Positions 3,395 to 49,610 of a stretch of 64,000 bases of DNA are shown piece by piece. The notes under the pieces are model-generated. The model worked only from the letters and a program-made list of their open reading frames with translations, was not told the DNA's origin and searched no databases. The translations under genes were made by a program, and so were the position numbers. This DNA comes from Methylopila jiangsuensis (GTDB lineage Bacteria > Pseudomonadota > Alphaproteobacteria > Rhizobiales > Methylopilaceae), in the NCBI RefSeq assembly GCF_027922305.1, contig NZ_BSFK01000005.1:682001-746000 (forward strand), given 5' to 3'. Within the stretch, counting starts at the first letter, position 1. Each line of letters begins with the position of its first letter.

Positions 3395-4942
3395 TCAGGC
3401 GCTGATCGCCGCCTGCGGGTTCAGCTTCTGCCGCTTGGCGGCGAGCTTGTTCAGCGCCGCCACATAGGCCTTGGCGGCGGCGACCAGCGTGTCCGGATCG
3501 GCCACGCGCGCCGTCACGGTCTTGTCGCCCTCCTCCAGCCGCACCGAGACCTCGGCCTGGGCGTCGGTGCCCTCGGTCACGGCGTGCACCTGGAACAGCG
3601 CCAGATTGGCCTCGTGGGGAACCACGCGGCGGATGGCGTTGAAGATCGCGTCCACCGGGCCGTTGCCGGAGGCCTGCACCGTGGTGTGGACGTCGTCGAT
3701 GTCCAGCGTCAGCGTCGCCTGCTGCGGGCCCAGGGTGCCGGCGATGACGGTGAGCGACAGCACCTTGATGCGGTCGTCGCTCGCGCCGATCTGGTTGTCC
3801 ACCAGCGCCTCGATGTCCTCGTCGTAGACGTGCTTCTTGCGGTCGGCCAGATCCTTGAACCGGGCGAAGGCGTCCTGCAGCGCGTTCTCGCCCAGCTCGT
3901 AGCCCAGCGCTTTCAGCTTGTCCTTGAAGGCGGCGCGGCCGGAATGCTTGCCCATGACCAGCGAGGTCTTGGTCACGCCCACGGACGCCGGCGTCATGAT
4001 CTCGTAGGTCTCGTTGTTCTTCAGCATCCCGTCCTGGTGGATGCCGCTCTCATGGGCGAAGGCGTTCTTGCCCACGATCGCCTTGTTGTACTGCACCGGG
4101 AACGACGTGGCGGCCGACACCAGCCGCGAAGCGCGGGTGAGCAGGGTCGATTCCACGCCGGTCTCGTACGGCATCGCGTCACGGCGCGTCTTCAGCGCCA
4201 TCACCACCTCCTCCAGCGCCGCGTTGCCCGCGCGCTCGCCGATGCCGTTGACGGTGCATTCGATCTGCCGCGCACCGCCGGCGAGGCCCGCCAGCGAGTT
4301 CGCCACCGCCAGCCCCAGGTCGTCATGGCAATGGGTGGAGAAGGTCACCTTGTCCGCGCCGGGCACGCGCTCGCGCATGGCCACGAACATGGCGCGGTAC
4401 TCGTCCGGCGTGGCGTAGCCCACCGTGTCCGGCAGGTTGATGGTGGTGGCGCCGGCCTTGATCGCCGTCTCCACCGCGCGGGCCAGATACTCGTGGCCGG
4501 TGCGGGTGGCGTCCATGGCGGACCACTCCACGTTGTCCACCAGGTTGCGCGCCTGCGCCACGGTGGCGGCGATGATCTCCAGCACCTGCTCTTCCGTCTT
4601 GCGCATCTGGTGCTGCAGATGGATCGGCGAGGTGGAGACGAAGGTGTGGATGCGCGGGCGCTGCGCGAAGCGCACCGCTTCGCCGCAGCGGGCGATGTCC
4701 GCCGGGATGGCGCGGGCGAGGCCGGCCACCACCGCGTTCCGGGTGCGGCGGGCGATCTCCGCCACCGCTTCGAAGTCGCCGTTGGAGGCGATGGGGAAAC
4801 CCGCCTCGATGATGTCGACGCCCATGCGGTCCAGCAGCGCCGCCACCTCGAGCTTCTCCTCGAAGGTCATGGTGGCGCCGGGGCACTGCTCGCCGTCGCG
4901 CAGCGTCGTGTCGAAAATGACGACGCGGTCGGTGGTGGTCAT
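3395..4942 (-). CDS. leuA: 2-isopropylmalate synthase
   Basis: Condenses acetyl-CoA with 2-oxoisovalerate, the first committed step of leucine synthesis. The protein is 515 residues, the normal length for LeuA1. The catalytic TIM barrel opens with [14 protein letters not shown] (residues 10-23). [13 protein letters not shown] supplies metal-binding histidines, and [14 protein letters not shown] and the [10 protein letters not shown] linker motif follow. The C-terminal about 130 residues match the LeuA allosteric dimer domain that binds leucine. The start at 4942 has GAAGGA 9 bases upstream; longer TTG-started reading is leader sequence. A leucine-rich leader peptide and hairpin precede it. 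Confidence 0.97.
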
Positions 4943-5027
4943 GATGTGGTGTCCTTCGGTCGCGCCGCGGGCGGTTTCGCTCCGGGCGGCGTCGCGTTTC
5001 GTCTGGTGGTCTGGTCCGGCGTCGCCT

Positions 5028-5070
5028 CCCCTGAGGGCCAAGGCGCGCTCGCCCGGCCGGCCCTCAGGGG
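5028..5070 (-). promoter_or_regulatory. leuA leader hairpin (candidate attenuation structure)
   Basis: CCCCTGAGGGCC (5028-5039) and GGCCCTCAGGGG (5059-5070) are perfect 12-bp inverted repeats with a 19-nt loop, in the leuA mRNA leader. The stop codon of the leader peptide lies inside one arm. On the minus strand the loop contains GAGCGCGC, which could pair (one G-U) with GCGCGTTC within the leader-peptide coding part, giving an alternative fold. There is no U-run after the hairpin, so whether it terminates transcription or acts another way is not settled. Confidence 0.55.
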
Positions 5071-5165
5071 CGCGTAAGGAGCAGACGGAGAGCGAACGCG
5101 CGCGGAGACGCGCCGGCCAAAGAGGCCGCCGTCCGGTCCGCGAAGATGCCGCCGCTCACGCGCAT
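5064..5165 (-). CDS. Leucine-rich leader peptide of leuA (33 aa)
   Basis: Short reading frame upstream of leuA, beginning MRVSGGIFADR and ending LRLLLTRP before TGA. Four of its last eight residues are leucine (codons CTC, CTG, CTC, CTT), the signature of a leader that senses charged tRNA-Leu. It begins about 30 bases after a plausible promoter and ends inside the leader hairpin. Leu leader peptides in front of leuA are known in proteobacteria, including alphaproteobacteria. The start has only a weak ribosome site; a downstream GTG is an alternative. Confidence 0.6.
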   Translation of the reverse strand: MRVSGGIFADRTAASLAGASPRAFALRLLLTRP

Positions 5166-5194
5166 GACGTTGTCCGAAGTGTCGTTCGCGGACA

Positions 5195-5223
5195 GCTTTA
5201 CTCCCATCGCCCGCGCCGATCAA
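5195..5223 (-). promoter_or_regulatory. Candidate sigma-70-type promoter for the leuA leader
   Basis: On the minus strand TTGATC (5218-5223) and TAAAGC (5195-5200) are separated by exactly 17 bases and would start transcription near 5188, just before the leader peptide. The -10 match is poor (3 of 6). Confidence 0.35.
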
Positions 5224-5241
5224 CGGGCTTCGGGAGGGCGC

Positions 5242-5544
5242 TCAGCCGATGTGCTCGGTGGTGGGGTAAGCGGCGTGGAACGCCTTCAGCCGCGCGAACA
5301 CCTGCGTGTCGCACTCCGGCGCCACCGGTTCGGTTCCGGAGATCCACGAGAACAGCTCCCGGTCCTGCCGCTCGATCAGCGCCTCGAACAGATCGAGCTC
5401 GGCCGCCGTCAAACGGTCGATCTCCGCGTCGGCGAACCGGCCCATGATCAGGTCCATCTCACGGGTGCCGCGCCGCCACGAGCGGTAGAGCGCCCGGCGC
5501 CGGCGCGGATCGAGGCCTTCGACGCTGCGGGTGGTTCCGGTCAT
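5242..5544 (-). CDS. sdhE: Succinate dehydrogenase FAD assembly factor SdhE
   Basis: 100-residue cytoplasmic protein of the SdhE/Sdh5 (DUF339) family, which promotes covalent attachment of FAD to the succinate dehydrogenase flavoprotein. RRRALYRSWRRGTREMD contains the conserved RGxxE motif (residues 25-29), followed by LIMGRFA and the acidic LDLFEALIERQDRELFSWI segment. The ATG at 5544 gives the usual family length; the frame stays open upstream but is not conserved-looking. It lies upstream of the leuA leader on the same strand, 19 bp before the candidate leuA promoter. Confidence 0.93.
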   Translation of the reverse strand: MTGTTRSVEGLDPRRRRALYRSWRRGTREMDLIMGRFADAEIDRLTAAELDLFEALIERQDRELFSWISGTEPVAPECDTQVFARLKAFHAAYPTTEHIG

Positions 5545-6347: not shown

Positions 6348-6439
6348 GGAGACGTGGCCGAGAGGCTGAAGGCACTCGTTTGCTAAATGAGCAGACCTGG
6401 AAACGGGTCTCGAGGGTTCGAATCCCTCCGTCTCCGCCA
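6348..6439 (+). tRNA. tRNA-Ser (anticodon GCT)
   Basis: 92-nt cloverleaf with long variable arm. Acceptor GGAGACG pairs with CGTCTCC, the discriminator is G and CCA is encoded. Anticodon stem CTCGT/ATGAG encloses loop TTGCTAA, giving anticodon GCT. The T-arm GAGGGTTCGAATCCCTC is intact. It decodes AGC/AGU. Confidence 0.97.

Positions 6440-48672: not shown

Positions 48673-48748
<76 letters not shown>

Positions 48749-48911: not shown

Positions 48912-49610
<699 letters not shown>

Follow-up and report, generated by a model that had tools for sequence, protein, structure and literature searches.

In the enterobacterial leu and trp systems, a leader peptide rich in amino acids of the pathway product lies ahead of the biosynthetic genes, and the leucine leader leuL, represented in Rfam by the Leu leader family, contains rare Leu codons (CUA in Escherichia coli). 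Leader translation also underlies control by the erm and cat leaders, in which a ribosome stalled in the leader open reading frame (ORF) opens a sequestered ribosome-binding site (RBS). For leuA itself, an element named LEU has been described in Actinobacteria, in which the Shine-Dalgarno (SD) sequence of leuA pairs with consecutive Leu codons of a leader ORF, the basal stem so formed enclosing a conserved pseudoknot; the available portion of the article describes no terminator and cites evidence that mutations of the Leu codons had no effect on its regulation (Seliverstov et al., 2005; PMC1262725). Among Alphaproteobacteria, trpL of Sinorhizobium meliloti is a tryptophan attenuator that yields the small RNA rnTrpL, and the main text of that report does not mention leuA (PMC10117765).

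The leuA leader of Methylopila jiangsuensis and its distribution

We analysed the region upstream of leuA in a 64,000-nucleotide stretch of Methylopila jiangsuensis DNA, hereafter the window, to whose first letter all coordinates refer; the leuA locus lies on its minus strand. The leuA gene (3395-4942) encodes the first enzyme committed to leucine synthesis, a 2-isopropylmalate synthase of 515 amino acids, which matches NF002087 with 843 bits (cut-off 729) and TIGR00973 above the cut-off, and LeuA is 88-89% identical between the window and two loci of its genus. Upstream, at 5544-5242, lies an sdhE-like gene assigned by a weak NCBIfam match below the cut-off. Between the two genes is a leader ORF of 33 codons (5064-5165; ATG 5165-5163, TGA 5066-5064), which encodes MRVSGGIFADRTAASLAGASPRAFALRLLLTRP and ends ALRLLLTRP-stop, with four Leu among the final eight codons; a second in-frame ATG is found further upstream, at 5207, and an in-frame ATG occurs 90-102 nt 5' of the leader stop in all 13 loci of the genus. 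The control codons (5076-5087) end with a CTT Leu codon at 5078-5076 and are followed by a hairpin (5028-5070) formed by CCCCTGAGGGCC (5070-5059) and GGCCCTCAGGGG (5039-5028), a perfect stem of 12 bp with a 19-nt loop and the UGA stop (5066-5064) in its 5' arm. A linker of about 85 nt, containing CAGACG at 5000-5005, leads to leuA and its SD AAGGA (4952-4956). The leader frame, its Leu codons and the stop within a perfect hairpin had been read directly in the letters by a sequence-only reading of the window, and they stand as described. That reading also named a plausible promoter, for which no sigma-70 match was found upstream of the leader at the threshold of the tool; what is left is a weaker promoter-like TTGATC-17-TAAAGC at 5195-5223, and 10 of the 13 loci in the genus have its pattern (TTGAT-17-TAxA) upstream of the leader. 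Elsewhere in the window, a tRNA-Ser (GCT) gene at 6348-6439 lies 1.4 kb from leuA, and two equally scoring tRNA-Ala (GGC) genes (48673-48748 and 48912-48987) lie about 160 nt apart.

The leuA leader arrangement in the window is not due to chance, as judged by sequence comparison, and is conserved across much of the Alphaproteobacteria. A motif search found the Leu-rich end and stop hairpin upstream of leuA in 52 of 56 order-level genomes, and matches of a model built from 54 sequences (R1) at L045, L055 and L056 raised this to 55 of 56 order-level loci, L049 being the only one without the element. It was also carried by all 80 further named loci, giving 132 of 136 in total. Across 289 genomes drawn from the class, R1 matched 81 and a second model, R2, matched 95 at E<=0.1; an R2 match lay directly upstream of, and on the same strand as, 87 of 131 full-length LeuA orthologues, and 44 of the 131 had none. 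When four of these R2-negative loci were viewed by eye, one held a diverged version (L240) and three had nothing evident. The best 30 R1 loci in the class all precede leuA, and among 86 class loci 72 fit the motif, six had leuA with no motif match and eight had no leuA match. A draw of 299 genomes from the phylum, class members included, gave 43 matches, only one of them outside the class (G499), and this was weak and partial (E 0.0027). No element was seen in the 13 listed genomes of family f24 within the order; one of these was searched for LeuA and has only a protein of 33% identity. The M. jiangsuensis genome holds a single good R1 match, with 62.1 bits (G000:C5:687025-687084, window 5025-5084), and the same search gave no second good copy. 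Searches of open-access papers turned up no report of the element, most subscription papers lying outside their scope; a 2004 study by Vitreschak et al. is said to treat attenuation in proteobacteria and may mention alphaproteobacterial leuA.

A leader of this kind also precedes a second LeuA subfamily, LeuA2 (PRK03739 or yeast type), to which protein P0004 belongs; the PRK03739-type LeuA of L210 is only 27% identical to P0001. The form known from leuA lies before LeuA2 at L230-L233, with stems CCCUUAAGG/CCUUAAGGG or CCCUUGGG/CCCAAGGG in three of them and CCCCUGA in one. Among 30 LeuA2 loci, 25 could be anchored and 11 had a candidate leader under a lenient rule applied with no shuffled control; some of these candidates have wholly different stems, which begin 3-5 nt after CUU. 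From their sequences, the leader would either have outlived replacement of the leuA gene or have been transferred. A leader before LeuA2 was observed in L243 as well, and four of L230-L233 and L243 carry compensating changes in the near-invariant C-G pairs.

Conserved leader end and stop-codon hairpin

Comparison demonstrates, at the level of sequence, that the ORF end, the Leu codons, the hairpin and their spacing are conserved. We compared 190 leaders, the remainder of 200 with assigned starts once near-duplicates, truncated pieces and those with short linkers had been taken out. Because the motif by which leaders were collected demanded CCCCT-stop and two Leu, CCCC-U-stop and the number of Leu codons are not independent findings; the exact positions of the Leu codons, the identity of CUU and the base that follows it were not imposed by this motif. 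Leu occupies codon -4 in 190 of 190 leaders and codon -6 in 185, and makes up 56.5% of codons -12 to -4, compared with 9.9% for codons -24 to -13. As the last Leu codon, 185 leaders use CUU and the other five CUA, both of which are rare, accounting for 4.1% and 0.5%, respectively, of the 5196 Leu codons in leuA; CUU lies five bases before the stem. The form of ribosome-mediated attenuation, recognised earlier in the window, is thus strongly backed by the conservation of the Leu codons, and these and the stem are both kept among relatives.

An A immediately follows the last control CUU in 189 of 190 leaders (window 5078-5075), whatever residue is encoded: at codon -3, S, T, I, R and M occur, among others, and codon -2 also varies. 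Arguments from pairing and from reading frame were tried, and neither accounts for this A. Fusion of leader and leuA by a +1 frameshift at CUU-A was considered and rejected, as the distance from the stop to the ATG occurs in all three frames and L008 has a stop just before leuA. The C-terminal Pro of the leader is nearly invariant, and class leaders often end L-R-L-x-x-P, the Arg codon between the two Leu being CGA. In 36 of the 66 class leaders, L157, L171, and L192 among them, the codon right before the final control CUU is CGA, which is slow in many bacteria. In L145 and L158, the stop in the hairpin is changed to UGG with the stem kept, and the frame then terminates in the loop.

The folding energy of the window hairpin is unexceptional for a GC-rich RNA (z -1.63, with 13 of 200 shuffles as stable; z -2.0 for the longer leader), and the hairpin is taken as real because it is conserved, energy alone being insufficient. 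Stem pairs 1-4 are C-G in 758 of 760 cells, which the collecting motif in part imposes, and the inner stem is variable, with many compensatory changes. The stop codon covaries with the 3' arm: UGA stands opposite UCA, UUA or UUG in 168 of 176 leaders, and UAG stands opposite UUA, CUA or CUG in 11 of 11.

An intrinsic terminator was rejected: no terminator-like site was found at the window leader, which has no U-run, and at least five T within the 8 nt 3' of the stem occur in only nine of 190 leaders. The window gave no Rfam match at the gathering threshold, and region 4800-5400 gave none at E<=10; the covariance model of the enterobacterial Leu leader did not match the window. These results bear out the earlier observation that the hairpin lacks a U-run and support the suspicion that the mechanism may differ from the enterobacterial one. 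The conserved unpaired ligand-binding core of a metabolite riboswitch is likewise absent, the loop and the linker varying in length and sequence. A pairing with the hairpin loop (GAGCGCGC with GCGCGTTC), which had been offered as an alternative, can be drawn in the window with one G-U; such a pseudoknot was rejected, as complementarity between leader and loop was no better within species than after permutation in nine tests on order, class and genus (z -0.6 to +1.8).

Complementarity of the leader end to the leuA ribosome-binding site

The linker varies too much to allow an ordinary covariation analysis, and we therefore compared the fit of each leader to its own RBS with its fit to the RBSs of other species. 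The region from -24 to -6 relative to the leader stop was paired with that from -22 to -2 relative to the leuA ATG, using GC-matched permutations, which leave the relatedness between species in; L140, L167, L222, and L210 were left out ahead of permutation. Own pairs were more stable than permuted ones in both the order (-9.66 vs. -8.94, n=124) and the class (-9.93 vs. -8.37, n=66), and in neither set did any of 2000 permutations do as well. No own-species excess was found in either set when the coding start replaced the RBS or the upstream leader replaced the leader end. Weaker own-species signals were seen between the leader end and positions -62 to -42 in the order (6/2000), positions -42 to -22, which adjoin the RBS, in the class (0/2000), and linker positions +15 to +37. 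Outside the genus of the window, a comparison of helix lengths agrees with the own-RBS excess. Chimeric folds in the class gave about 9.4 expected pairs with the own RBS vs. about 5.0 with a foreign one (summed by hand; Wilcoxon flags, distorted by zeros, were left out). Complementarity to the own leuA site is thereby demonstrated by sequence comparison in class and order, examples being L061, L025, and L093, from a comparison that took in 127 of 132 leaders, and L157, L171, and L192. For LeuA2, the leader end and its own RBS region gave -15.54 vs. -13.33 (3/2000, not GC-matched) with n=13, i.e., the 11 candidate leaders plus L232 and L233.

Consensus folding (alifold) of seven clades, comprising 64 of 186 leaders, paired the leader end with the RBS in six of them, using five registers; the clades came from a rerun with stronger gap penalties, lenient identity clustering having yielded one cluster of 177. 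To judge from these sequences, it looks as if the complementarity between leader and RBS has been re-made repeatedly, and own-RBS complementarity re-made in separate clades is what translational attenuation predicts. A universal helix formed by the plain anti-SD CUCCUU was rejected as the sole explanation, because in many species the pairing is in another register or the SD contains no AAGGA.

Masking the leader with a ribosome in full-leader folds changed the openness of the SD only slightly. In the order, it was 0.39 when free, 0.48 with a stalled ribosome, 0.46 with a ribosome at the stop and 0.41 with a control mask; the class values were 0.36, 0.45, 0.41 and 0.43, the stalled value there being not different from the control mask. 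Such modelling supports a ribosome switch only weakly, and stalled and terminating ribosomes are poorly told apart by it.

In the window, the helix between leader and RBS is about 5 bp long; it spans 4-6 bp in 10 of 11 genus members and 8 bp in L008. The longest Watson-Crick helix of the genus (n=11) averages 5.00 for own pairs vs. 5.24 for permuted ones, and 1985 of 2000 permutations equalled or exceeded the own length. The window SD is predicted to be mostly open in every state, its unpaired probability being 0.69 whether or not a ribosome is stalled on the leader. The alifold structures of the genus and of a mixed clade holding the window leader (L001) do pair the leuA AAGGA with UCCUU of the Leu codons (5080-5076), and in that of the Hansschlegelia clade the leader end pairs with positions -22 to -31 and -55 to -61 from the ATG, not with the SD. 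Folding is suggestive of a pairing of the leader end in the genus rather with the linker, which in the window would join CGUCUG (5087-5082) to CAGACG, as in its minimum free energy (MFE) fold; the corresponding genus comparison gave z -2.2 (21/1000, n=11) and was one of 15 pairs of segments tried in that group. Translational control of leuA, which had been suggested from the window alone, thus finds its evidence in order and class, but no excess in the window's own genus; because the helix is short there and does not exceed that of relatives, the mechanism in this genus rests on the wider class. A CUUCGG at 5179-5174, upstream of the leader ATG, complements CCGAAG at 4959-4954, which overlaps the leuA SD; the two are paired in the window MFE fold, and a similar CUUCGG is present in several genus members.

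Proposed control of leuA and its relation to known leaders

Taken together, the comparisons make it probable that the element is a leucine-responsive, ribosome-mediated translational attenuator of leuA. The leader ORF would be translated, and its Leu-x-Leu end, with the rare CUU five bases 5' of a strong hairpin, would serve as the sensor. When leucyl-tRNA is abundant, the ribosome would reach the stop inside the hairpin and depart, and the leader end would then pair with the leuA RBS about 100 nt downstream, enclosing the stop hairpin as a spacer, so that leuA would be poorly translated. With leucyl-tRNA scarce, the ribosome would stall on the Leu codons beside the hairpin and cover the pairing strand, and the leuA site would be freed. 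We infer the direction of control, the stalling, the role of the hairpin and operation in this genome with its short helix; the hairpin in particular would serve as an abutment for the ribosome, given its distance to CUU and general ribosome-footprint reasoning.

Other explanations put the output elsewhere. That leader translation governs Rho-dependent termination in the linker, and not leuA translation directly, would suit the linker between hairpin and ATG, which has a median of about 75 nt and in many leaders appears to hold C/A-rich stretches; Rho was one option named in the sequence-only reading, and repressed leuA translation could also cause polarity. The strongest own-species signal sits on the RBS, however, and a ribosome stalled 5' of the hairpin should expose the linker under starvation, the wrong direction, so we hold this reading to be unlikely. 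Slightly less credit is due to the idea that the stop hairpin is itself active, as an RNA polymerase pause or a protein-binding site, with the peptide synchronising or reporting. The hairpin is the most conserved part of the leader, and a protein-binding role has been argued for the actinobacterial LEU element (PMC1262725). Yet the stem is wholly different before some LeuA2 genes and the loop and inner stem vary freely among leaders, which makes a sequence-specific binder unlikely, and pausing alone yields no output.

Classical transcription attenuation with an intrinsic terminator is suggested by a Leu-rich leader peptide before a biosynthetic gene, but we find it very improbable, because the terminator signals and the Rfam Leu-leader match are missing, as set out above, and because a stalled ribosome would promote, not block, the hairpin. 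We give least credence to a TnaC-like arrest of the nascent peptide at Pro-stop, with the peptide sequence as the sensor: the C-terminal Pro and the Leu at -4 and -6 would fit, but the Pro follows from the CCCC in the stem and from the motif used for collection, the leaders L145 and L158 have no stop at that site, and codon -3 keeps its A while the amino acid changes, so it is bases, not residues, that are conserved.

For translational attenuation, a broader proposal may be made tentatively, and we consider it somewhat doubtful: across the class, the hairpin would park the ribosome with CUU in the decoding site and leucyl-tRNA rate-limiting, the same codons would double as antisense to the leuA RBS, and the module would be independent of stem sequence and kept when the LeuA subfamily is replaced. 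Many families of Alphaproteobacteria would possess, in front of leuA, a simple RNA switch for leucine control, which has no match in Rfam 15. The fixed distance from hairpin to control codon would provide a model, open to testing, for the tuning of ribosome stalling on hungry codons by mRNA structure. The presence of the leader before two LeuA subfamilies suggests regulation that outlives the gene it controls.

Among described systems, the element resembles enterobacterial leuL in its Leu-rich peptide, its rare Leu codons and its position upstream of leuA, and differs from it in having the stop codon within the hairpin, no U-run terminator and no Rfam match. With the erm and cat leaders it would share a ribosome that stalls in the leader ORF and frees an RBS; here, the inducer would be a lack of leucyl-tRNA, not an antibiotic, and the pairing strand consists of the control codons. 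Like trpL of S. meliloti, it encodes, in an alphaproteobacterium, a leader peptide ahead of a gene for amino-acid biosynthesis, whereas trpL concerns tryptophan and gives rise to rnTrpL (PMC10117765). The LEU element of Actinobacteria (PMC1262725) likewise places a leader ORF with consecutive Leu codons ahead of leuA, and its basal stem matches the leader-RBS helix proposed here; unlike it, the alphaproteobacterial leader has a simple stop-codon hairpin and a variable linker, and its loop pseudoknot shows no covariation. The parallel between the two may possibly have arisen by convergence.
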